Below are positions 1 through 16,685 of a stretch of 64,000 nucleotides of DNA, in pieces (positions within the stretch are counted from its first letter, which is position 1; each line of letters opens with the position of its first letter). Source of the DNA: Synechococcus sp. MEDNS5 (GTDB lineage: Bacteria; Cyanobacteriota; Cyanobacteriia; PCC-6307; Cyanobiaceae); contig NZ_CP047952.1 of the NCBI RefSeq assembly GCF_014279875.1, positions 744,001 through 808,000 on the forward strand. The letters are read 5' to 3'. The notes beneath the pieces were generated by a model, which worked only from the letters and a program-made list of their open reading frames with translations, searched no databases and was not told where the DNA came from. Position numbers and translations under genes: made by a program.

Positions 1-144
1 CACGAAGTGAACAACGATTGGATGGATGACATCCAGCCAGGGAAGATTTTTATCGTTGAGTGGTGGGAGCAACTCGAGCATCGGCAAGCGGAGCGACGCT
101 CTTTAAGGATGGACAGCATTCAGGCAGCAGTCATCCTTTCGTGA
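1..144 (+). CDS. C-terminal fragment of an unrecognised protein
   Basis: An open frame enters from the left edge and ends at TGA 142-144, giving 47 residues. The visible part is acidic and tryptophan-rich (IVEWWEQLEH) and ends in RMDSIQAAVILS. I do not recognise the family. It runs convergently towards the antiporter gene, with about 50 bases between the two stops. No terminator hairpin is obvious in that gap. The frame is open for its whole visible length with codon use like its neighbours, which is the only support for calling it coding. Confidence 0.45.
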   Translation, partial: HEVNNDWMDDIQPGKIFIVEWWEQLEHRQAERRSLRMDSIQAAVILS

Positions 145-4234: not shown

Positions 4235-4696
4235 ATGGGCGACCCCCAGATCCAGACTCCTGACGCAGAGCAGTATTGGCATCTCTGGACGGATGCTGAG
4301 GGCATGAGTCGTCATCAGCTCTGCACCATCAGTGAGTTCAAGCTCGGCCGGCTCGGACCTCGGAACTCACCGCAGTTCTCACGCGATCTGATCAAGGACG
4401 GCAATGCGTTCGTGACGTATCTGCCCGTGGGTTGGACAGCTGATTGGCATGAAAACCCTGACCCCAAGTGGATCTACATCCTGCGCGGAGCCTGGGCTGT
4501 CACCAGCATGGATGGTCAGCGGGTTGTGATGAAAGCTGGTGAGTACTCCTATGGGGGGGATCAGGGCTGCGTGATGACATCCGATGGCCGTTTTGGCCAT
4601 CTGTCTGAACAGGTTGGCGATGAACCTTGCGTGCAGCTGGTGATCCAGCGCAATGACGATGCCTGGCGCAATCTCCCTCCAGGGTCATTCAGCTGA
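4235..4696 (+). CDS. Cupin-fold protein of unknown function
   Basis: This 153-residue protein has a single predicted cupin barrel. The region from WHENPDPKWIYILRG to GEYSYGG corresponds to cupin motif 1 and the turn before motif 2, but the usual HxH pair is replaced by a lone His with Asn-Pro-Asp, so metal binding is uncertain. No signal peptide is seen. It opens a run of same-strand genes (lactonase, Nif11, GlcG-like) with gaps under 20 bases, which suggests one operon. The function is unknown; a sugar-binding or isomerase role would fit the neighbours but is inference. Confidence 0.75.
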   Translation: MGDPQIQTPDAEQYWHLWTDAEGMSRHQLCTISEFKLGRLGPRNSPQFSRDLIKDGNAFVTYLPVGWTADWHENPDPKWIYILRGAWAVTSMDGQRVVMKAGEYSYGGDQGCVMTSDGRFGHLSEQVGDEPCVQLVIQRNDDAWRNLPPGSFS

Positions 4697-4704
4697 GACA
4701 ACCG

Positions 4705-5661
4705 ATGGCTGCGATGAACGTTTATCGAAGCGATTTCGTTGAAACAAGGCTTGAGGAGCTGGATCCTCGATTCAGTTCTCTGGTCTTGTTCAATGCCCAG
4801 TTGGAACGTCTGTTTGATGGTTGCCGATGGCTTGAAGGTCCTGTGTGGCTTGGTGATCAGCAGCGACTTTTGGTTTCCGATATCCCCAACGACCGAATTC
4901 TTGCTTGGGATGAGGTGCATGGATTGAGCGTGTTCCGCCACAGTGCAGGATTCCCGAATGGTCAGACGCGGGATCGTCAAGGACGTTTGCTGACATGCAG
5001 CCACCGCGATCGTGCCGTGTTGCGAACCGAGCACAACGGCAGAGTGACGTTGTTGGTGGACTCCCATCAGGGAAAGTCTCTCAATACACCCAATGATGTG
5101 GTGGTGAAACGGGACGGCACCATCTGGTTTAGTGATCCGGTGTATGGGCTTGTCAATGATTACGAGGGCGGTCGGCGGTCTTCGTTGCAAGCTCCTGTGG
5201 TTTACCGCTTTGACCCAGCGGATGGCTCATTGCAAGCCATGACCACCCCAGATGAAGTGTCTGGTCCGAATGGTCTGGCCTTTTCGCCGGATGAGTCCCT
5301 GTTGTACGTCGTCGATACCGGAGCCCCGGACGATCCCGTTGCCGATCGACTGATTCACGTGTTTGATGTTGTTGAGGGTGGCCGGCAACTCGAAGGACGA
5401 CGGGATTTCCACCGGGTGAATAACGGCAATGCCGATGGCATTCGTGTGGATGAGGTCGGCAATGTCTGGAGCAGCGCAGGCAATGGTGTGCACTGCATCG
5501 CTCCCGACGGAACTCTGCTGGGACGCATTGCCACGCCGCACCTCGTCAGCAATCTCTGTTTTGGCGGTGTTCATGGCAACCGACTGTTTCTGTGCAGTTG
5601 GGACACCGTGTATTCCATCCACGTCAACACCAGGGGCCTTCAGCACCCAGCCCTGCCCTGA
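4705..5661 (+). CDS. SMP-30/gluconolactonase-like lactone hydrolase
   Basis: A six-bladed beta-propeller of 318 residues in the SMP-30/gluconolactonase/LRE family, which hydrolyse sugar lactones or related esters using one divalent metal. The expected metal ligands are visible: E44 in LEGPVW, N130 in TPNDVVV, an Asn near 189 in GPNGLAFSPDE, and an Asp near 243 in NADGIRVDE. FSDPVYG and VVDTG are family landmarks. It lacks a signal peptide and should be cytoplasmic. Eight bases separate it from the cupin gene. With the nearby SDR sugar dehydrogenase it could convert gluconolactone to gluconate; the substrate is inferred only. Confidence 0.87.
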   Translation: MAAMNVYRSDFVETRLEELDPRFSSLVLFNAQLERLFDGCRWLEGPVWLGDQQRLLVSDIPNDRILAWDEVHGLSVFRHSAGFPNGQTRDRQGRLLTCSHRDRAVLRTEHNGRVTLLVDSHQGKSLNTPNDVVVKRDGTIWFSDPVYGLVNDYEGGRRSSLQAPVVYRFDPADGSLQAMTTPDEVSGPNGLAFSPDESLLYVVDTGAPDDPVADRLIHVFDVVEGGRQLEGRRDFHRVNNGNADGIRVDEVGNVWSSAGNGVHCIAPDGTLLGRIATPHLVSNLCFGGVHGNRLFLCSWDTVYSIHVNTRGLQHPALP

Positions 5662-5678
5662 CCCATTTCTGAACTCCA

Positions 5679-5939
5679 ATGACCAGTAATCCTCAACTTG
5701 AAGCGTTTCTCAGCAAGGTGAAAGGTGATGCCGACCTGCTGAAACAGTTCCACTCCGCCGCATGCCTTAATGACATCGCTGCCATGGGGGCTGGGATGGG
5801 CTTTCAATTCACAGGCGTCGACATTCTTTTGCATCAGGCCTCAGCCACGCTGAAGCTCTCTGCGGATGCCTTAGAGGCCCTGGCTGCAGGTGTGGAATTG
5901 GAAGGGCATCTCTGGAAGATGGCCATTCAGTGGACCTGA
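5679..5939 (+). CDS. Nif11-domain small protein
   Basis: This 86-residue protein starts PQLEAFLSKVKGDADLLKQF and continues with AAMGAGMGFQFTG, the typical helical Nif11 (nitrogenase/nitrile-hydratase leader) pattern: a repeated L-x-x-F-L-x-K-v start, then an A-x-x-x-G-[FY] block. In marine picocyanobacteria this domain occurs in free-standing proteins and in leader peptides of prochlorosin-like lanthipeptides. Here there is no double-glycine cleavage site with a Ser/Thr/Cys-rich core, so it is not an obvious peptide precursor. It sits between the lactonase and the GlcG-like gene. The function is unknown. Confidence 0.75.
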   Translation: MTSNPQLEAFLSKVKGDADLLKQFHSAACLNDIAAMGAGMGFQFTGVDILLHQASATLKLSADALEALAAGVELEGHLWKMAIQWT

Positions 5940-5943
5940 ATCA

Positions 5944-6384
5944 ATGCAGATGATTCCTTGCCTGGACCTCGCTGATGCCGAGGCGATTGTCTCCTCCGCG
6001 CTCCAGGCGGCTGAACGCTCTGCGTCGCAGGTGTCGATTGCAGTGGTGGATGGGGCTGGACTGCTGATCCGTTTCAGTCGGGTCGATGGCGCATCAGCGG
6101 CGAGCGTTGAAGCGGCCACAGCCAAAGCGCGGACGTCGGCTTTGACAGGAAACGACAGCGCCGCTGCCGAGCAGGCCATCGCATCCGGGCGTCTGGCCTT
6201 GCTCTCGCTGCAGGGGGTTCTCCACCAGCCTTGCGCTCTGATGGCTGGTGGTCTTGTGCTGCGCTCCCAGGGAGTTGTGGTGGGGGCGATTGGCGTGTCC
6301 GGGATGACTCCTGATCAGGACACGGCCATCGCTCGCGCCGGTGTGGACTGTTTTGCGCTCAGAGCCCAGGACTGCTCATCATGA
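5944..6384 (+). CDS. GlcG/HbpS-like (heme-binding fold) protein
   Basis: A 146-residue protein of the GlcG/HbpS/PduO-C fold. The pattern VSIAVVDGAGLLIRFSRVDGA, followed by a helix with TAKARTSAL and an ending of VGAIGVSGMTPDQD, is characteristic. Family members bind heme or corrinoid-like ligands or accompany glycolate and alcohol oxidation operons, but many have no known role. ATG 5944 is chosen because it is 4 bases after the Nif11 stop; the frame is open further upstream. Its 3' end overlaps the convergent SDR gene by 26 bases. Confidence 0.8.
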   Translation: MQMIPCLDLADAEAIVSSALQAAERSASQVSIAVVDGAGLLIRFSRVDGASAASVEAATAKARTSALTGNDSAAAEQAIASGRLALLSLQGVLHQPCALMAGGLVLRSQGVVVGAIGVSGMTPDQDTAIARAGVDCFALRAQDCSS

Positions 6385-7159
6385 TGCCGCCGTCAGCAAA
6401 CACGCTGGTGGCGGTCATGTAGCTGGCTCCATTGCTGGCCAGAAATGCCACCACGGAGGCGATTTCTTCAGGCTGAGCCATGCGCCCCATGGGAATCGCT
6501 GCATTGAGCTTGGCCAAAAGCTCAGGATTGTTGATCGTGGAGTCGTTGATTGGCGTGGCCACGGCTCCAGGACCCACATTCACAATCGAGACTCCCTTAC
6601 CGGCCAGTTCCACCCCGGCGGTGCGGGTGAGCATGCGCACTCCGCCTTTGGCCACGCAGTAGGGCGTGTTGTCGGGCATCGGCCAGTCCTCGTGAACCGA
6701 TGAGATGTTGATGATCCTGCCGCCGCTGCCTTGGGCGATCATTTGTTTGGCTGCGAACTGTGTGGCGAAGAACACGCCACGGAGGTTCACATTCATCACT
6801 TTGTCGTAGTCCTCCGGAGTGGTGTCGAGGATCGAGGTGCGGGTTTCGATTCCCGCGTTGTTCACCATCACGTCGATCTTCCCGAACGTTTTCACCGCAG
6901 TGTCGATCAGCCGTTGAAGATCATCCAGCTTGGCCACGTCGGCCTGAACACCAATGGCTTGACCGCCCAGCTCGCCGATTTCTTCGATCAGCTCTTCGGT
7001 GCGTTCGGGATGAGAGCGGTAATCGATCACTACTTTCGCGCCCAGGCCGCCAACCGCCTCAACGATCGACTTGCCGATTCCGGAATTGCCGCCGGTGACA
7101 ACGATCACTTTGTCGCGAAGACAAAGGGATGTCATGGCCTTGGGGACCTGGTTGGTCAT
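6359..7159 (-). CDS. Short-chain dehydrogenase, glucose 1-dehydrogenase-like
   Basis: A 266-residue classical SDR. The cofactor motif TGGNSGIG is at about residues 22-29, VNNAGI follows near 107, the catalytic Ser is in NISSV, and the Tyr-Lys pair is in YCVAK. The spacing and the C-terminal SVFADGG match the glucose 1-dehydrogenase subgroup, which oxidises beta-D-glucose to gluconolactone with NAD(P)+. Substrate range in this subgroup is broad, so glucose is likely but unproven. The start could also be the internal ATG at residue 9. It is convergent with and overlaps the GlcG-like gene, and about 110 bases separate it from the divergent VOC gene. Confidence 0.87.
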   Translation of the reverse strand: MTNQVPKAMTSLCLRDKVIVVTGGNSGIGKSIVEAVGGLGAKVVIDYRSHPERTEELIEEIGELGGQAIGVQADVAKLDDLQRLIDTAVKTFGKIDVMVNNAGIETRTSILDTTPEDYDKVMNVNLRGVFFATQFAAKQMIAQGSGGRIINISSVHEDWPMPDNTPYCVAKGGVRMLTRTAGVELAGKGVSIVNVGPGAVATPINDSTINNPELLAKLNAAIPMGRMAQPEEIASVVAFLASNGASYMTATSVFADGGIMMSSPGL

Positions 7160-7268
7160 GGGTATCGGTGAAAGACATTCATTGGATAGCTGGTTTTCAT
7201 ATGGATTGCTGTGTTGTGTTGCGTCGTCCAGAACGCGCTAAGACGCATTTAAAGCCTTTTGTCTGGTC

Positions 7269-8108
7269 ATGACTGACTCCATCCGACCTATGCCTGCGGT
7301 GGAAGGAGTGGCGTTCTCTCTACCAGATCCGCATGCTCTTGATCCGCTGTTCAGCACCCTGGGCGTGACTGACCACGGCAGCACCATGCTCGATGGGGCA
7401 GCGCTTCAACGTCGGTTTGGCATCAATGAAGGACAGGCAACCGTGCATCACCATCGTCTCGGCTCGGAGCGTCTTGACACCATCACGTTCGCGGGGTGTC
7501 CTCCCGCAAGGTCGTTACAACCTGGGCCTGCCAATACCTTGTGGTTTCAGCACGTGGCCATTGTGGTGAGTGACATGAACCGTGCGGCTGCCTGTTTGAT
7601 GCCGATGGTGACGCCCATCTCCGAGTCCCCCCAGTGGCTCCCCAACGGAGTGGCGGCATGGAAGTTCAGGAACGCGGCCGGCCACGCCATGGAACTGTTG
7701 TGGTTTCCCCCCGAACTGGGCCATCCCCGTTGGCATCAGTCTGATCCTCCGCTTTTTCAAGGGCTTGATCACACAGCGATCGCCATCAGTGACAGCGACC
7801 TCAGCCTTGCGTTCTATAGCTGTGATCTGAGGCTCAAGCTGCGTTACGCCACGCTCAATCAGGGGCTTGAACAGGAGCGATTGGATGGATTAATGGATGC
7901 CAGGGTTGCGATTCACGGCGTGAGTGGCTCCAGCCCCTGTGGGGTGGAGTTCCTTCGTTATCTCCACCCGGAGCCTTGCCAGCCAACAGCGGCTTCCCTG
8001 CAGCCTCAGGATGCGTTGTACGCGCAAATCCTTGTTCGCGATCCGGATGCTGGTCATGGCCGATTGGTGAGTGATCCTGATGGTCATCGACTCTGGATCG
8101 AGTCTTAA
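7269..8108 (+). CDS. Two-module VOC (glyoxalase/dioxygenase fold) protein
   Basis: A 279-residue protein with two vicinal-oxygen-chelate modules. One begins near LWFQHVAIVVSDM (about residue 90) and the other near GLDHTAIAISDSD (about 168). The final DPDGHRLWIE is the classic end of a VOC module with its Glu ligand. The family includes glyoxalase I, extradiol dioxygenases and epimerases, all metal-dependent. I cannot assign a reaction. The first 85 residues form an extra module without clear metal ligands. Placement within a set of oxidoreductases and a lactonase suggests a role in small-molecule oxidation or detoxification. Confidence 0.75.
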   Translation: MTDSIRPMPAVEGVAFSLPDPHALDPLFSTLGVTDHGSTMLDGAALQRRFGINEGQATVHHHRLGSERLDTITFAGCPPARSLQPGPANTLWFQHVAIVVSDMNRAAACLMPMVTPISESPQWLPNGVAAWKFRNAAGHAMELLWFPPELGHPRWHQSDPPLFQGLDHTAIAISDSDLSLAFYSCDLRLKLRYATLNQGLEQERLDGLMDARVAIHGVSGSSPCGVEFLRYLHPEPCQPTAASLQPQDALYAQILVRDPDAGHGRLVSDPDGHRLWIES

Positions 8109-8169
8109 GACAATCCTTAACGTTCAGATTCAGCTCGCTTTCTAGCGTTCGATAAATGCGTTCTGTCCG

Positions 8170-8661
8170 TTGGATCTCATCTCTCTGATTCTCCCCGCTG
8201 CGCCCACCGGACCCGCTGTTGGTGGGTTGCTTTTGCTGCGTGTGTTCACTGGGGTGGTGTTCATTCGCCACGGCTGGCCAAAGTTAAGCAACCTCAGCAT
8301 CTGGGCTGCAGCCATGAAAACTCCGGCATGGCTCTGCTTCCTCTCGGCTTTTTCGATGTGGGCCGGAGGGATTGCTTTGATCATCGGCCTTCTCACGCCG
8401 CTCGCCGCCTTGGCGATCGCTGTTTCGATGCTTTATGCCGTGGTGTTGGAGATCAAGAATGGATTTCCCTTCATTGCCCCAGATCCCTTTCAGATTCCTG
8501 AGGGTGATTATGTAGGACCCATGGGTGTGGGCGACCCTCCGAGTTGGGAAAAAGCCGCCATGTATGTGGTGATGTGCGCAGTGCTGATCACCGCCGGAGC
8601 TGGTCCTTTCAGTGTGGACCTGGCGATCGTTGCACCCAAAGTGCAGGCACTGCTGGGCTAG
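8170..8661 (+). CDS. DoxX family membrane protein
   Basis: A 163-residue integral membrane protein with about four hydrophobic helices. The DoxX signature is present at the start: LLRVFTGVVFIRHGWPKL, and later GLLTPLAALAIAVSML. DoxX relatives include the small subunit of thiosulfate:quinone oxidoreductase and many proteins tied to quinone or redox stress. Translation apparently starts at TTG 8170, since no ATG is in frame nearby; an upstream ATG at 8156 is out of frame. The gene meets the GMC oxidoreductase gene stop-to-stop with no gap, so the pair may be linked functionally, with the membrane partner offering a route to quinone. That is inference. Confidence 0.85.
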   Translation: MDLISLILPAAPTGPAVGGLLLLRVFTGVVFIRHGWPKLSNLSIWAAAMKTPAWLCFLSAFSMWAGGIALIIGLLTPLAALAIAVSMLYAVVLEIKNGFPFIAPDPFQIPEGDYVGPMGVGDPPSWEKAAMYVVMCAVLITAGAGPFSVDLAIVAPKVQALLG

Positions 8662-8671
8662 TTAGCCCAGC
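8652..8671. terminator. Perfect inverted repeat spanning two facing stop codons
   Basis: GCTGGGCTA, GT, TAGCCCAGC forms 9-bp arms with a 2-base centre. The left TAG ends the DoxX gene and the right TTA is the TAA of the GMC gene on the other strand. The hairpin could end transcription from both sides, although there is no T-run. Confidence 0.45.
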
Positions 8672-10260
8672 CGTTCCTTGAGGTGATCCCCCACGCGGAT
8701 GGCATTGGCAATCGCGGTGAGTGATGGATTCACTGCCGAGCTGCTGGGGAAGAAACTTGTATCCACAACATAAAGATTGTCCACTTCATGGGTGCGGCAG
8801 TTGAGATCCAGCACTGATTTGGTGGGATCTGTGCCGAAGCGGCAGGTCCCCATCTGGTGACCGACAGCCGCGATATCCATAGATGAGGCGAAGTACACCT
8901 GACGCTCAGCCAGGTGGTTCTGCAGGTAAAGCTTGTCGAGAAGACCTTCCAGCCTGTTGATCAGCTCCTGGGATGCCCGGTTGTTGGTCATGGTGTAGCT
9001 CAGCTTGATCTGGCCGTTGGCATCCACGGTGACCCGATTCTCGGGGCGCGGCAGGTCTTCCGTTTGCAGCCAGAAATCAAGCGAATGCTCAGCGATACGA
9101 TCCATGCTCCAGGTGGGAGCGAGAGCCGTTAAACGAGGCTTGTAACCCTTGATCATGGCTCCGTTCGTCTTGCCGGTCATCTGCACATTGCCCATCGGGT
9201 AGTCGAAGGCGTTATCACCGAAATACCAGTCGTTCACCGCAACAGTCTTCTGGAAGATTGTGGTGTTTGGTTCATGGGCGAGGGCTACAACGGCCTTGCA
9301 GTTGTGGAACATATAATTCCTTCCCACCTGTTCGGAGCTGTTGGCCAGTCCCTTGGGGTGGGCATCATTGGCTGACATCAGCAACAGTCGGGCAGAGTTC
9401 GCCGCTCCAGCTGAAATCACCACAATGTCTCCGCGGAAGCGGCGCTCTTCACCACGGTGATTCACAACAACTTCGGTGATCTCACGTCCGCTGGCGTCGG
9501 TCTTGAGCTTGCAGACTTCCGCTTCGGTCAGCAGAAAAACGTTGTCGTGATCCAGGGCTGGACGCACACCCATCACTTCGGCGTCGCCTTTGGCGTGCAC
9601 GAGACAGGGGAAACCGTCGCAGCGGTTGCATCGCACACAGGCGCTGAAGGCTGGGTCCAGCTCATTCATGGCCACGCCGGTTGGTGCATGGAAGGGATGA
9701 AGACCAGCGGAGCGCAGATCAGTCACCAGTTTCTGCATCCGCGGCTCGTGGCTGATCGGTGCGTAGGGGTAAGGCGAGGACGCCGGTGGCTCGGTGGGAT
9801 CTTCACCTCGCTCGCCATGCACGTGATACCACTCTTCGGCTTTGCGGTAGTAGGGCTCGAAGACGTCGTATTTGAGGGGCCATTCCGGTGACTCACCATC
9901 AACGTGAATCACTGATTCAAAATCCCGCTCCCGAAGGCGGAAGTGGGCCGCTCCGTACATCTTTGAGGCACCACCGACGAAGTAATGACTTCCGGGTTGA
10001 AATTCTTTTCCGTTCTTGTCGAGCCAGGGATCGGTTGAGACGTAGCGATCCTTCTGAAAAACTTCCACAGGGTCCCAGTTCTGAGGTTCTCGGGGCAGCC
10101 AGCCACCTCGCTCCAGGATCAGAATCGAATGGCCTGAATCGGCCAGGGCCCGCGCTAGAGAACCGCCACCAGCACCACTGCCGATGATCACCACGTTGAA
10201 GTGATCGCCTTTGGGCTCCATCGGCGTCTGACGCTGCGCGGAGCAGGTGGCAAAATCCAT
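8662..10260 (-). CDS. GMC family FAD-dependent oxidoreductase with a Cys cluster
   Basis: A 532-residue flavoprotein that probably oxidises a sugar or alcohol. The dinucleotide-binding fold is VVIIGSGAGGG at about residues 23-33, followed by ILERG. The GMC C-terminal domain has HQMGTCRFG and VDTSFFPSS..NPSLT, supplying the catalytic His and Asn. A cysteine cluster C208-x2-C211-x2-C214-x4-C219 (CVRCNRCDGFPC) interrupts the fold and resembles a metal or Fe-S site. There is no Tat signal, so it should be cytoplasmic. The start may be the Met at residue 14. Choline-dehydrogenase-like annotations would be misleading; the substrate is unknown. Confidence 0.9.
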   Translation of the reverse strand: MDFATCSAQRQTPMEPKGDHFNVVIIGSGAGGGSLARALADSGHSILILERGGWLPREPQNWDPVEVFQKDRYVSTDPWLDKNGKEFQPGSHYFVGGASKMYGAAHFRLRERDFESVIHVDGESPEWPLKYDVFEPYYRKAEEWYHVHGERGEDPTEPPASSPYPYAPISHEPRMQKLVTDLRSAGLHPFHAPTGVAMNELDPAFSACVRCNRCDGFPCLVHAKGDAEVMGVRPALDHDNVFLLTEAEVCKLKTDASGREITEVVVNHRGEERRFRGDIVVISAGAANSARLLLMSANDAHPKGLANSSEQVGRNYMFHNCKAVVALAHEPNTTIFQKTVAVNDWYFGDNAFDYPMGNVQMTGKTNGAMIKGYKPRLTALAPTWSMDRIAEHSLDFWLQTEDLPRPENRVTVDANGQIKLSYTMTNNRASQELINRLEGLLDKLYLQNHLAERQVYFASSMDIAAVGHQMGTCRFGTDPTKSVLDLNCRTHEVDNLYVVDTSFFPSSSAVNPSLTAIANAIRVGDHLKERLG

Positions 10261-10348
10261 CGGTGGTACTTAAAGCACTTCCTGAACGGTAGGTAAGGCT
10301 TCCGATGACGTCAGGAGATGCGTGCTGAGCCGCACCGCCTGGAGGGGA

Positions 10349-13045
10349 TTAGGTCTGCCAACGATTCAGCTGCGTGATCATCTTGGCGATAATGGCGCTC
10401 CACCCTGTTTGATGACTGGCTCCGACGCCCGCGCCGCTGCAGCCATGGAAATATTCATTGAACAGGAAGAGATCACGCCACAGAGGGTTCTGCTGAAACT
10501 GTTCAACAGTGCCATTGAAGGCTCGTCGTCCGTCGGCATCGCGGCGGAAGATGCCGATCAGGCGTTGTTCCAACTCAAGGGAAATCTGCCAGAGGTTCAG
10601 TTCCCTGCCGGACCCTGTCGGGAATTCCATTTTGAAATCGTCGCCGAAGAAATGGCCGAATTTCTGAAGGGCTTCGATCAGTAGGTAGTTGATCGGCATC
10701 CAGATGGGGCCCCGCCAGTTGGAGTTACCTCCAAACATGGCAACTGGGCTGTCGGCCGGGCTGTAGCTGATCGTGGCGTAGTCATCTCCCTGCTGATATG
10801 AATATGGATTGTTTTCGTAAACCTTCGAGAGGCTGCGAATGCCGTAGGGAGACAGGAACTCCTGTTCATCGAACACTCTCGTCAGAATTCGCCGCAGGCG
10901 GTTGGGAGGCACGATTGAAAACAGAACCCTGTCCCGGTGCCATGTGCCGAGGTGCGGGATCGCATCAAATGGGGCTCCGCGTTCCTTCCCTAACTCATTG
11001 AGGTAGCTGCGCACATCCAGGGCTGGAATTGAATCCACCGTCTGGGCGTCAAAGGTGGCGATCGCCAGCAATGGGATCAGTCCGCTGAGAGAGCGGGTGC
11101 GCAGGTAATCGGAGCTCCCGTCCGGCCGTTTCAGCACGTCGTAATAGAACCCATCCGCTTCGTCCCAATTCACGAATCCACGCCCTGAAGGACTGTTCAG
11201 GGCATAGGTCAGCCGACTGAAGTCGCTGACAAAGCGTTCACATAAGCCTTTGTACTCCTCTCGATCACTCGCTAGCAGAACACAGGCCTCCAGCATGTTG
11301 AGACTGAGCATGCCCATCCAGGCTGTGCCATCGGATTGCTCGATCCGACTGCCGTCTTTCAGGGGATAACGGCGATCGAAGATGGCGATGTTGTCGAGCC
11401 CGAGGAAGCCGCCTTCGAACAGGCTGTCCCCGTTGCGATCCGTGCGGTTGGCCCACCAGCCGTATTCGAGCAGAAGCTCCCGCAGGCTGGCGCGAAGAAA
11501 GGGGTAGTCCTTTTGCCCATGGGTGCGCTTGGAGATCTGGAAAATGCGCAGGCTGGCCCAGGCTCCGATCGGTGGATTGGCATCGGATAAGGCCCATTCG
11601 TAGGCGGGGGACTGCCCGTTGTTGGCTGTCACGCTCGCCTGGCGAAGCATGCGGGCCTGACGCTTTGCTTCGCCGGGGTCGAGTTCTGCGAAGGCCACGG
11701 CGTGAACCATGAGATCCCACTGACAGAAGTAGGGATATTCCCAACAGTCCGGCATCGAGATGATGTTGCGGGCTCGCAGAGTGCTCCAGTAAGCGTTCTC
11801 GGTGTGCCAACGGCTTTCCGGTGGTCTCAGAGAGTTGCTGTCGCCGCGCAACCATCGGGCGACATACCAGTTGTAAAACTTGCGGCACCAGAACAACCCG
11901 GCCGCCGCCGCGGCGTGGATCGCTCGGTCTTCCGTACCCAGGCCCGGTGCCACCCACTGCAGGTGATCCTCCCAGTCCTGTCGACGCTGGCTCAGGACGG
12001 CTTCGACCTGACTGGACTCCATCGGGTCTGGAGCCTTCGCTCCGTGATGGTCATGTCGGCAGAGGCGAAGATTCACCTGCCAGACCTCGCCTGGTTCAAG
12101 ACGGCGTTGGAGATGAAGCGCTGCTTTGCTGCCCTCGCCGATCGGGTTCACGGCGTCTGTTTGCCCTTCGATCAGATACCGGTGAAAGGCATCCTTCACA
12201 TAGGGCTGGCGAAGCGGTTGGTTGTAAAGGCGCTCGGTGTTGGTTTCGTTCTCCGTGAACAGCCAGGTGCCCTGCTCGCTGCAGCTGAGGTTGTACGACG
12301 CCAACTCTTTCAATGCGTCGCTGACGACCACGCCGTCTGCAAGACGAATCCGTGGATGTGCGCTGTTTTCATCACCCCAGTCCCAGGTGTTGCGGAACCA
12401 GAGACTGGGAAGCAGATGAAGATCCGCTGCCTCTGGTCCCTGGTTGGTCACCGTGAGGCGGATCAGTAGATCCTCTGGCGAGACCTTGGCGTATTCAACG
12501 TCCAGATCGAAGAAGCGGTTTCCAGAAAAAATTCCGGTGTCGACCAACTCGAATTCAGTCTCATCCCGGCTGCGGCGTCGGTTCTCATCGCGCAGCCGTT
12601 CGTAGGGAAAGCGATCCTGCGGATAGCGGTACAGGGCCTTGGCGTAGCTGCATGTGGGTGTGCCCGCCTGGTGATACATCGTGTCTTTGAGGTCTTCCCC
12701 GTGATTGCCTTCAGGGTTTCCCAGACCGAACAAGCGTTCCTTGAGCACAGGATCTTTCCCGTTCCAAAGCACGGGAGCGAAGCAGAGCAGACCGTTTTCA
12801 TCGCTCAGACCGAGAAGGCCATCCTCACCCCAGCGATAGGTTCGTAGATGGCTGTGATCGAAGGGAAAAGAGTTCCAGGCGTTGCCATCGTCCGAATAAT
12901 CTTCACGGACCGTTCCCCACTGGCGATCACTGAGATAGGTCCCCCAGAGGTCCCATGGCTTCAGACCCGCATCCCTCTCCCGGGATCGAACCAACTCCAT
13001 CGGCTCCTCGCCCAATTGAGCGGTCGAGATTATGGACGTAGTCAT
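10349..13045 (-). CDS. GH63-like glycoside hydrolase (MGH1 type)
   Basis: An 898-residue protein whose C-terminal half is an (alpha/alpha)6 barrel of the GH63 group that includes bacterial mannosylglycerate and glucosylglycerate hydrolases. Landmarks are CWEYPYFCQWDLMVHA, QSDGTAWMGMLSLNML and NWRGPIWMPINYLL. The N-terminal beta-rich part begins at DLWGTYLSDRQWG. ATG 13045 is chosen; the frame stays open upstream but runs through the tRNA-Leu gene, so longer starts are implausible. There is no signal peptide, so it acts on intracellular sugar. Marine Synechococcus make glucosylglycerate as an osmolyte, which makes that a plausible substrate, but this is inference. Confidence 0.87.
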   Translation of the reverse strand: MTTSIISTAQLGEEPMELVRSRERDAGLKPWDLWGTYLSDRQWGTVREDYSDDGNAWNSFPFDHSHLRTYRWGEDGLLGLSDENGLLCFAPVLWNGKDPVLKERLFGLGNPEGNHGEDLKDTMYHQAGTPTCSYAKALYRYPQDRFPYERLRDENRRRSRDETEFELVDTGIFSGNRFFDLDVEYAKVSPEDLLIRLTVTNQGPEAADLHLLPSLWFRNTWDWGDENSAHPRIRLADGVVVSDALKELASYNLSCSEQGTWLFTENETNTERLYNQPLRQPYVKDAFHRYLIEGQTDAVNPIGEGSKAALHLQRRLEPGEVWQVNLRLCRHDHHGAKAPDPMESSQVEAVLSQRRQDWEDHLQWVAPGLGTEDRAIHAAAAAGLFWCRKFYNWYVARWLRGDSNSLRPPESRWHTENAYWSTLRARNIISMPDCWEYPYFCQWDLMVHAVAFAELDPGEAKRQARMLRQASVTANNGQSPAYEWALSDANPPIGAWASLRIFQISKRTHGQKDYPFLRASLRELLLEYGWWANRTDRNGDSLFEGGFLGLDNIAIFDRRYPLKDGSRIEQSDGTAWMGMLSLNMLEACVLLASDREEYKGLCERFVSDFSRLTYALNSPSGRGFVNWDEADGFYYDVLKRPDGSSDYLRTRSLSGLIPLLAIATFDAQTVDSIPALDVRSYLNELGKERGAPFDAIPHLGTWHRDRVLFSIVPPNRLRRILTRVFDEQEFLSPYGIRSLSKVYENNPYSYQQGDDYATISYSPADSPVAMFGGNSNWRGPIWMPINYLLIEALQKFGHFFGDDFKMEFPTGSGRELNLWQISLELEQRLIGIFRRDADGRRAFNGTVEQFQQNPLWRDLFLFNEYFHGCSGAGVGASHQTGWSAIIAKMITQLNRWQT

Positions 13046-13129: not shown

Positions 13130-13215
13130 TGGGGGCGGGGGGACTTGAACCCCCACAGGATTTTCATCCCAAACGATTTTAAGTCGCGTGCGTCTACCGA
13201 TTCCGCCACGCCCCC
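13130..13215 (-). tRNA. tRNA-Leu(UAA), intron-less
   Basis: The minus strand folds into an 86-nt class II tRNA. The acceptor stem GGGGGCG pairs perfectly with CGCCCCC, followed by discriminator A. The D-arm contains GGCGGAATCGGTAGACGC, the anticodon loop is CTTAAAA (anticodon TAA), there is a long variable arm, and the T-arm has GTTCAAGTC. No CCA is encoded. The anticodon arm is continuous, so the group I intron found at this tRNA in many freshwater cyanobacteria and in chloroplasts is absent. Confidence 0.95.
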
Positions 13216-16033: not shown

Positions 16034-16118
16034 GACCGAATCTGTCAGGTTCCCCTGACTTTCGTGGTGTCCCCGTCTTTTCGTCTGTTGCCAGGATCAC
16101 GAGATTGCTTTGGATGTC

Positions 16119-16685
16119 ATGGCAGAAGCGGATCTGCAGCGGTTTCTCAAGAAGGTCAAGGCGCTGAATGCCCTCGTTGAGCACCTCGAGAGCGATCCTG
16201 CTTCTCGGAGACAGTTCGCTTCCTGCTCGGATCACAACGCAGTTGTGGCTTTGGCTTCAGCGTGGGGATTCGATATTGGACGCCGTTGGGGAGAGACATC
16301 GTTTGCTCCGCAAGCTCCATCGACGGCGACGACCAACCTTCTGGCGGATGTGGGTTGTCTTCCGGGTGAGGAACAGGAGAACGTTCTATGCAGCGGACCG
16401 GATTGGAGGCTGGTGAGAATCCAATCCAACGGCTCAAGCACTCCCGCAGGCTCTTGGTACGAGCAGAAAGAGCATGAATGGTTGACCTTGCTGAAGGGGA
16501 GCGCCCTTCTTCGACTGGCTGAACCTGACCAGCTGGTCGATCTCAGTGTTGGAGATCAGCTCTTGCTTCCGGCCGGTCGTCGTCATCGGGTGGAAAGGAC
16601 TGATCCCCATCCAGGTACGACCTGGTTGGCTCTGTATTGGGCTGATGCCCCTGGGCTGATCCCCACGGCCGCATCGAACGTTTAA
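16119..16685 (+). CDS. Nif11-cupin fusion protein
   Basis: A 188-residue protein with two recognisable parts. Residues 1-60 are a Nif11-like helical domain (ADLQRFLKKVKALNALVEHL, then VVALASAWGFDIG). Residues about 95-180 are a cupin barrel with motif 1 in WYEQKEHEWLTLLKGSALL and motif 2 in GDQLLLPAGRRHRVERTD. EHEWLTLLKG and RRHRVE match the EHxxLxGxG/PxxxxHxV pattern of the YjlB-like small cupins. The start is ATG 16119; a TTG lies three codons upstream. The gene is convergent with psiE, and the last 143 bases overlap psiE on the opposite strand. Confidence 0.8.
   Translation: MAEADLQRFLKKVKALNALVEHLESDPASRRQFASCSDHNAVVALASAWGFDIGRRWGETSFAPQAPSTATTNLLADVGCLPGEEQENVLCSGPDWRLVRIQSNGSSTPAGSWYEQKEHEWLTLLKGSALLRLAEPDQLVDLSVGDQLLLPAGRRHRVERTDPHPGTTWLALYWADAPGLIPTAASNV

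Follow-up and report, generated by a model that had tools for sequence, protein, structure and literature searches.

The closest described counterpart of the oxidase considered here is ARTO, whose picocyanobacterial genes are named ctaC2-D2-E2 and which is widespread in picocyanobacteria, occurring in 85% of the Synechococcus reference genomes of one study (PMC10119275). Its role is presented there as open, with service as an extra electron sink and the reduction of Fe(III) among the proposals, and the words 'GMC' and 'gluconolactonase' occur 0 times in the main text of that paper. For the oxidation of sugars, the closest counterparts are FAD glucose dehydrogenase (FAD-GDH) and fructose dehydrogenase (FDH), which have the GMC fold; in FAD-GDH, C212, C218 and C222 are the ligands of a 3Fe-4S cluster (PMC6719666). 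Here we describe a block of nine genes at positions 4235-13045 of a 64,000-nucleotide window from Synechococcus sp. MEDNS5 (bases 744001-808000 of a single 2.44 Mb contig). The block includes a GMC flavoprotein (GMC1), a GH63-like hydrolase, an SDR and an SMP-30 lactonase (Table 1). From comparison with other genomes, it looks like one half, here displaced, of a gene set that in relatives stands beside an ARTO-type oxidase, and we see roughly even chances that it serves as the sugar-oxidising arm of a module for respiration with ARTO as the oxidase. The proposal is built on gene content, gene order, conserved linkage, loss of the CuA site, conserved Cys and catalytic residues, and predicted folds.

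The oxidase genes lie mostly to the left of the window, in an operon of DUF2231, a second DUF2231, COX2, COX1, COX3 and a second GMC gene, GMC2 (genome 738154-744087), which is separated from the block by cacA, sulP and pyrC. The DUF2231 gene at the window edge has 167/168 identity to the copy in L063 (we label genomic stretches, or loci, as Lnnn and genomes as Gnnn). COX1, with a strong Pfam match, stands together with COX2 and COX3, and the genome has one other COX1 gene, at 1.767 Mb, making two in total. The COX2 protein aligns with those of the Thermus caa3 oxidase and the aa3-600 quinol oxidase, and the Cys, Glu, Cys, His and Met ligands of CuA are all absent from its loop; no Cys is found in the CuA loop of any of the 37 aligned COX2 sequences. 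A subunit II that lacks the CuA ligands fits ARTO (ctaC2D2E2). The likeness thus consists of a COX2-COX1-COX3 set without CuA ligands that holds the second COX1 of the genome, and the difference is in the neighbors, which here are DUF2231 and GMC2 together with a putative sugar-oxidation arm.

We examined the linkage of the two gene sets by tblastn in a sample of 251 genomes of the family. In the genus of the window and in genus g5, one or more of the oxidase operon genes adjoin cacA, beyond pyrC and sulP, in all 12 genomes that carry GH63 (at L066, DUF2231 alone of the operon fell inside the stretch). In other genera of the family, DUF2231, COX, GMC2, GH63 and GMC1 form one run on the same strand at 24 of 27 loci; L133 is a locus of this set with no COX1 or COX2 match. 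Because these genera have the genes in a single run, the layout in the genus of the window looks like the same module rearranged, and the module may have been split by rearrangement in the window's genome and its near relatives.

Within the block, GH63 and GMC1 are closely associated. GH63 has matches in 84 of the 251 genomes, of which five (G018, G084, G124, G170 and G250) were set apart by hand because their only match is a paralog with 41-47% identity. GMC1 lies downstream of GH63 on the same strand, at a distance of -5 to 352 bases, in 72 of 76 single-piece orthologs (G074, G082 and G103, which have GH63 in split hits, are omitted from this count); the other four are in G222, G186, G087 and G105. 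Same-genus relatives keep the block order between pyrC and tRNA-Leu/ndhL, with some members absent in some of them. At the 27 loci from other genera we found DoxX in 20, VOC in 19, SDR in 18, SMP-30 in 15, an NDH-2-like gene in 14, Nif11 in 11, cupin in 11 and HbpS in 10, and the module shares its stretch with an ndhL match in L077, L131, L137 and the named record L154. The GH63-GMC1 adjacency and the recurrence of the gene order in relatives argue that this is not a chance cluster. The original prediction, which described the nine genes and proposed a synteny check, stands on this point: the genes are not scattered in relatives, although the accessory members vary. As a separate observation, in G204 (L066:12529-17471) pyrC and sulP are repeated beside the block, one of the pyrC copies being partial.

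GMC1 is nearest in sequence to the Fe-S flavin subunits of FAD-GDH and FDH, and its structural model retrieves FDH and FAD-GDH first (E = 1.6e-37 to 6.3e-34) and then pyranose 2-oxidase (1.3e-25). It shares with these dehydrogenases the GMC fold, the catalytic His/Asn pair (H468/N511) and a Cys cluster at the 3Fe-4S position, and differs from them by one extra Cys. The motif is C208-C211-C214-C219, in which C208, C214 and C219 align with the ligands C212, C218 and C222 of Burkholderia FAD-GDH and C211 is the addition. The model has a pLDDT of 82.8 but is weak at residues 212-221, which include part of the motif, and so gives no basis for cluster geometry. The motif is present in 41 of 43 GMC1 sequences and in none of 24 GMC2 sequences, and in a wider set it occurs in 51 of 79 GMC1 relatives. 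No hitchhiker or multiheme cytochrome c subunit like those of FAD-GDH and FDH is encoded among the nine block proteins, the rest of the genome not having been searched. GMC2 is 36-38% identical to GMC1. Its catalytic His is absent in 21 of the 22 cases that could be read, and Gly replaces the Asn in 24 of 24. Despite this the gene stays beside the oxidase, and its product may be a subunit without catalytic activity, or one that works differently.

Some relatives of GMC1 outside the family also have oxidase and glycosidase neighbors. The 80 named loci that we compared are the best 80 of 520 loci around GMC1 relatives (74 are from outside the family), and Pfam was used to check a representative of every new gene family. 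Among these best 80 of 520, cydA is found in 20 and COX1 in 10, never both; GH15 in 21 and GH63 in 18, never both; and an oxidase together with a hydrolase in 21. For example, L159, from Spartobacteria (Verrucomicrobia), has GH63-GMC1-MFS-SDR-NDH2-cydA-cydB on one strand; L157 has NDH-2, COX2, COX1, COX3, SDR, GMC1 and MIP; and L171 and L214 have HbpS, SMP-30, VOC, SDR and GH63 alongside GMC1. Nine genomes chosen for a cydA at the GMC locus have one to four cydA matches each, and in four Streptomyces the cydA at the GMC locus is the second copy, with the lower score. Those four loci are L180, L188, L197 and L212, with the GMC1 relative and an SDR in the stretch (no SDR match in L212). Over the 74 out-of-family loci, matches to block genes number 74 for GMC1, 41 for SDR, 18 for VOC, 11 for GH63, 10 for SMP-30, 7 for DoxX, 2 for cupin and 1 for HbpS. 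As a control we used the 50 window open reading frames (ORFs) of 140 aa or more, a set for which Nif11 is too short: two non-block ORFs match one locus each and the other 40 none, though this control does not correct for the commonness of SDR genes.

These comparisons suggest a wider proposal, which we hold tentatively and at slightly less than even odds: that a module found in several phyla respires free sugar without phosphorylating it, an intracellular glycosidase (GH63 or GH15), a GMC protein (mostly with the Fe-S motif) and an SDR of the glucose-dehydrogenase type feeding a dedicated quinol oxidase. The oxidase would be ARTO in cyanobacteria, while actinobacteria, Chloroflexota and Verrucomicrobia would use cytochrome bd, in many cases a second one, and the locus studied here would be a case split by rearrangement. 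The comparisons also bear on the idea that the neighborhood has no shared function and that unrelated accessory genes have gathered at a tolerant site by tRNA-Leu. The strands of the block genes alternate, and some relatives lack the block or part of it: G222 has lost the genes between GH63, which it retains, and a cupin stub that matches residues 2-52 of 153, and in G186 GH63 is the only block gene that remains in the stretch. But similar sets recur in other genera and phyla with replacement of parts, and we regard this already disfavored idea as very improbable. The stub in G222 (L064:2239-2391) lies where the block is missing and resembles a deletion scar.

A different role for GMC1 is suggested by its best NCBIfam hit, MftG, which also belongs to the GMC proteins and links mycofactocin to respiration by handing on electrons (PMC11778925). 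DoxX weakly matches HvfX, and the small Nif11 protein scores well above the cut-off of the Nif11 leader model (Table 1). The block could then be a redox system built on a cofactor or on a ribosomally synthesised and post-translationally modified peptide (RiPP), with Nif11 as the precursor and GMC1 and DoxX acting on the modified peptide as MftG and HvfX do. However, the block GMC is far below the MftG cut-off (69.8 versus 387.45 bits), the HvfX match is 35 versus 80 bits, and there is no radical-SAM protein or other maturase among the nine block proteins. The Nif11 tail is well conserved in relatives that align in frame (GVELxGHLW-like), unlike a hypervariable RiPP core, and Nif11 is matched in 3 of the best 80 of 520 GMC1 loci. 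We consider this the least probable of the explanations.

The proposed sugar-oxidising arm would begin with the GH63-like protein, which is 898 aa long and matches PF03200, the GH63 C-terminal domain, at 37.1 bits (cut-off 22.4); PF22422 is also over its cut-off. A sequence search of solved structures returned only one weak match, so we used a structural model (mean pLDDT 74.5, with weak stretches that include D551). Over both domains the model matches processing alpha-glucosidase I (Z 18.8, 3.7 Å, 606 residues), and it also matches YgjK (Z 15.7). The two-domain fold and the GH63 C-terminal Pfam domain are common to all three proteins, but sequence identity is only about 16% and 13%, respectively. 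The C-terminal part alone matches single-domain mannosylglycerate and glucosylglycerate hydrolases (MgH and GgH; Z 14.4-14.9 over 322-339 residues), which align to residues 369-891 only, whereas alpha-glucosidase I aligns from about residue 22. We also considered placing the protein among the GgH/MgH enzymes, which have a single domain and about 440 aa; its length and its two domains set it apart from them. D551 and E864, which may correspond to the known GH63 catalytic Asp/Glu pair, do not vary across alignments of 23 and 17 sequences, D551 being in a weak stretch of the model.

The similarity to GgH and MgH is relevant to the substrate, because the original prediction had the block degrade glucosylglycerate. 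Under such osmolyte recycling, GH63 would cleave glucosylglycerate or glucosylglycerol after an osmotic downshift and the other genes would oxidise the freed glucose. The match of the catalytic domain to these hydrolases and the PF22422 score agree with this, as does a MIP gene (aquaporin/glycerol facilitator) near GH63 at 7 of 20 loci from other cyanobacterial families and near GMC1 at 12 of the best 80 of 520 loci. However, the full-length model is closer to the two-domain alpha-glucosidase I, and a proxy for gpgS is scarcer where GH63 is present: it was found in 17 of 79 genomes with a GH63 ortholog versus 95 of 172 without, and the direction is the same if the five paralog-only genomes are counted in (17/84 versus 95/167). 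No genome among the 251 scored above the NF010496 cut-off; presence in this proxy was therefore defined by the gap between scores of 96 and 75 bits. The window's genome moreover has a gpgS-like gene beside a GH13 enzyme, with a HAD phosphatase on the other strand, at 2.36 Mb, about 1.6 Mb away. This cluster resembles the described gpgS-gmgG cluster (PMC7522525, PMC9361551) and is likely, from its sequences, to be the glucosylglycerate cluster of this genome. PMC9361551 assigns the glucosyl(mannosyl)glycerate glucosidase activity in picocyanobacteria to gmgG, and reports that its freshwater isolates lack glucosylglycerate genes completely and that ggpSP is in only two freshwater strains. Since the gpgS proxy is mostly missing and a separate gpgS/GH13 cluster exists, glucosylglycerate is unlikely to be the conserved substrate, and the predicted glucosylglycerate route is not supported; we think osmolyte recycling improbable as the function of the block.

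A maltodextrin or another alpha-glucoside is the more likely substrate, because a debranching-enzyme-like gene occurs at 7 of the 27 family loci (L075, L078, L124-L127 and L133) and GH15 takes the place of GH63 in other phyla. The debranching-enzyme-like gene adjoins GH63 in L107; the calls were made by Pfam in L107 and L125 (alpha-amylase and CBM48) and by 44-49% similarity in the rest. One specific form of this is a side route from glycogen, in which GH63 would act on short alpha-glucans and the free glucose would feed ARTO. It is a choice of substrate within our proposal and not an alternative to it, and the best fold matches of GH63, which are alpha-glucosidases, also agree with it. On the other hand, the debranching-enzyme-like gene is unmatched at loci in the genus of the window and in g5, and alpha-glucosidase I cleaves alpha-1,2 linkages. 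We consider the glycogen route possible but improbable, although less so than osmolyte recycling.

The remaining enzymes would act after the sugar is released. Among solved chains the SDR is closest to the Bacillus-type glucose 1-dehydrogenase, but it scores 259 bits against a curated cut-off of 420 for NF006493 (glucose 1-dehydrogenase). SDR relatives with 63-67% identity adjoin GMC in L156, L159, L160, L161 and L167. The solved chains nearest to the SMP-30 protein are putative gluconolactonases. From this material we infer a substrate, an electron path, lactone and aldonate steps and a physiological role for the module. The GH63-like enzyme would free glucose or a similar sugar from an intracellular alpha-glucoside. 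GMC1, as an Fe-S flavoenzyme, would oxidise the sugar and pass the electrons to plastoquinone, perhaps via DoxX, while the glucose-dehydrogenase-like SDR would oxidise it with NAD(P); in relatives, the neighboring NDH-2-like enzyme could return the SDR electrons to quinone. SMP-30 would open the lactone, and ARTO would oxidise the quinol with oxygen. The resemblance of GMC1, SDR and SMP-30 to sugar-oxidising enzymes, together with the quinol-type oxidases beside which many relatives keep the set, supports the earlier idea that the block oxidises sugar toward quinone. The entry of the aldonate into metabolism would be a further step, for which no TIGR01313 gluconokinase was found.

Several observations weigh against the proposed module. 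The missing gluconokinase is one: the search with TIGR01313 gave no match, and TIGR01314 gave two FGGY kinases, both below its cut-off. The role of DoxX as a quinone link is a guess. Strands alternate in four sets of genes–cupin, SMP-30, Nif11 and HbpS-like (+); SDR (-); VOC and DoxX (+); GMC1 and GH63-like (-)–and therefore the tightly spaced genes are not one operon. In the family, 3 of the 27 loci have GH63-GMC1 but no oxidase in the stretch. G222 and G186 retain the oxidase, GMC2 and GH63, but no match reaches the GMC1 level and the stretch holds neither SDR nor SMP-30, and GMC2-level matches are also present in genomes without GH63 (for example, G004). Among 20 GH63 loci in other cyanobacterial families, COX1 is present in only 3 and GMC1 in 7 (DoxX was found in none of the 20 by tblastn, yet ORF comparison shows one in L108). 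Of the best 80 of 520 GMC1 loci, 50 have no oxidase within 10 kb, although some of these contigs are short and 24 of the 48 loci of 19 kb or more do have one. Of the 20 cydA loci, 13 come from Streptomyces or near kin and so do not count as independent, which leaves one locus from Chloroflexota, one from Spartobacteria and five from actinobacterial records. Some of the named loci duplicate records that also stand among the unnamed loci (for example, L153/L131 and L151/L075). The Cys motif is missing from 28 of the 79 GMC1 relatives, including all 16 from Streptomyces or Streptacidiphilus and those of L186, L204 and L215, all near an oxidase, so the Fe-S cluster is not needed for linkage to an oxidase. 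Finally, the part of PMC10100731 that treats glucose 1-dehydrogenase reports it in the WH7803 proteome with no significant change with glucose, and does not list it as identified in the proteomes of WH8102, MED4 or SS120; the WH7803 enzyme may correspond to the block SDR.

All nine ORFs are present at 4235-13045 as originally described, side by side and tightly spaced, in our ORF check of the window, and the proteins of eight of them pass a curated Pfam cut-off, the VOC/Glyoxalase match alone being below (Table 1). The GH63 ORF is open to 13225, and we set its start at 13045 because the tRNA occupies 13130-13215. We take the ORF at the left border to be pyrC, and those to the right of tRNA-Leu to be ndhL and trpA. 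At 16110-16685 (+), 3 kb from the block with its separate Nif11 and cupin genes, a 191-aa ORF fuses a Nif11 domain (over the cut-off) with a cupin-like domain (under the cut-off).

Table 1. Features of the block, its borders and the associated loci (window positions, except where the genome is named).
Feature	Position	Strand	Basis or remark
DUF2231 membrane protein gene, 5' end; first gene of the ARTO-type operon	1..87	-	ORFs, Pfam
Cupin protein	4235-4696	+	Pfam over curated cut-off
SMP-30/gluconolactonase-like lactonase	4705-5661	+	PF08450, 159 bits vs cut-off 26.3
Nif11 protein	5679-5939	+	Nif11 leader model, 67.4 vs 32.3 bits
HbpS/GlcG-like protein	5944-6384	+	PF03928, 100 bits vs 25
SDR, glucose 1-dehydrogenase-like	6359-7159	-	Pfam over cut-off; nearest solved chains
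VOC-family protein	7269-8108	+	VOC/Glyoxalase Pfam weak, 18.5 vs cut-off 20.6 bits
DoxX membrane protein	8170-8661	+	PF07681, 49 bits vs 23.6
GMC1, FAD sugar dehydrogenase-like flavoprotein	8662-10260	-	Pfam; Cys motif; H468/N511; fold
Two-domain GH63-type alpha-glucosidase-like hydrolase	10349-13045	-	Pfam; predicted fold
tRNA-Leu(UAA)	13130-13215	-	Right border of the block, outside its function
GMC2	genome 738154-739674 (L061:10154-11674; also given as 738166)		Left of the window, beside COX3
gpgS-like/GH13/HAD phosphatase cluster	genome 2359001-2371000 (L229)		

The observation behind the original prediction is thus confirmed and its interpretation partly borne out, in the oxidation of sugar toward quinone but not in the use of glucosylglycerate; the oxidase operon was outside its view. 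In the literature searched, which left out most subscription papers, we came across no account of the module, and we regard it as a new assembly of known parts. If the proposal is true, sugar oxidation would be a dedicated electron source of ARTO, and the conserved set of sugar-oxidising partners would make that source concrete and testable. The parallel arrangement with cytochrome bd that distant bacteria show hints at a general form of sugar respiration that annotation centered on phosphorylated intermediates may have missed.

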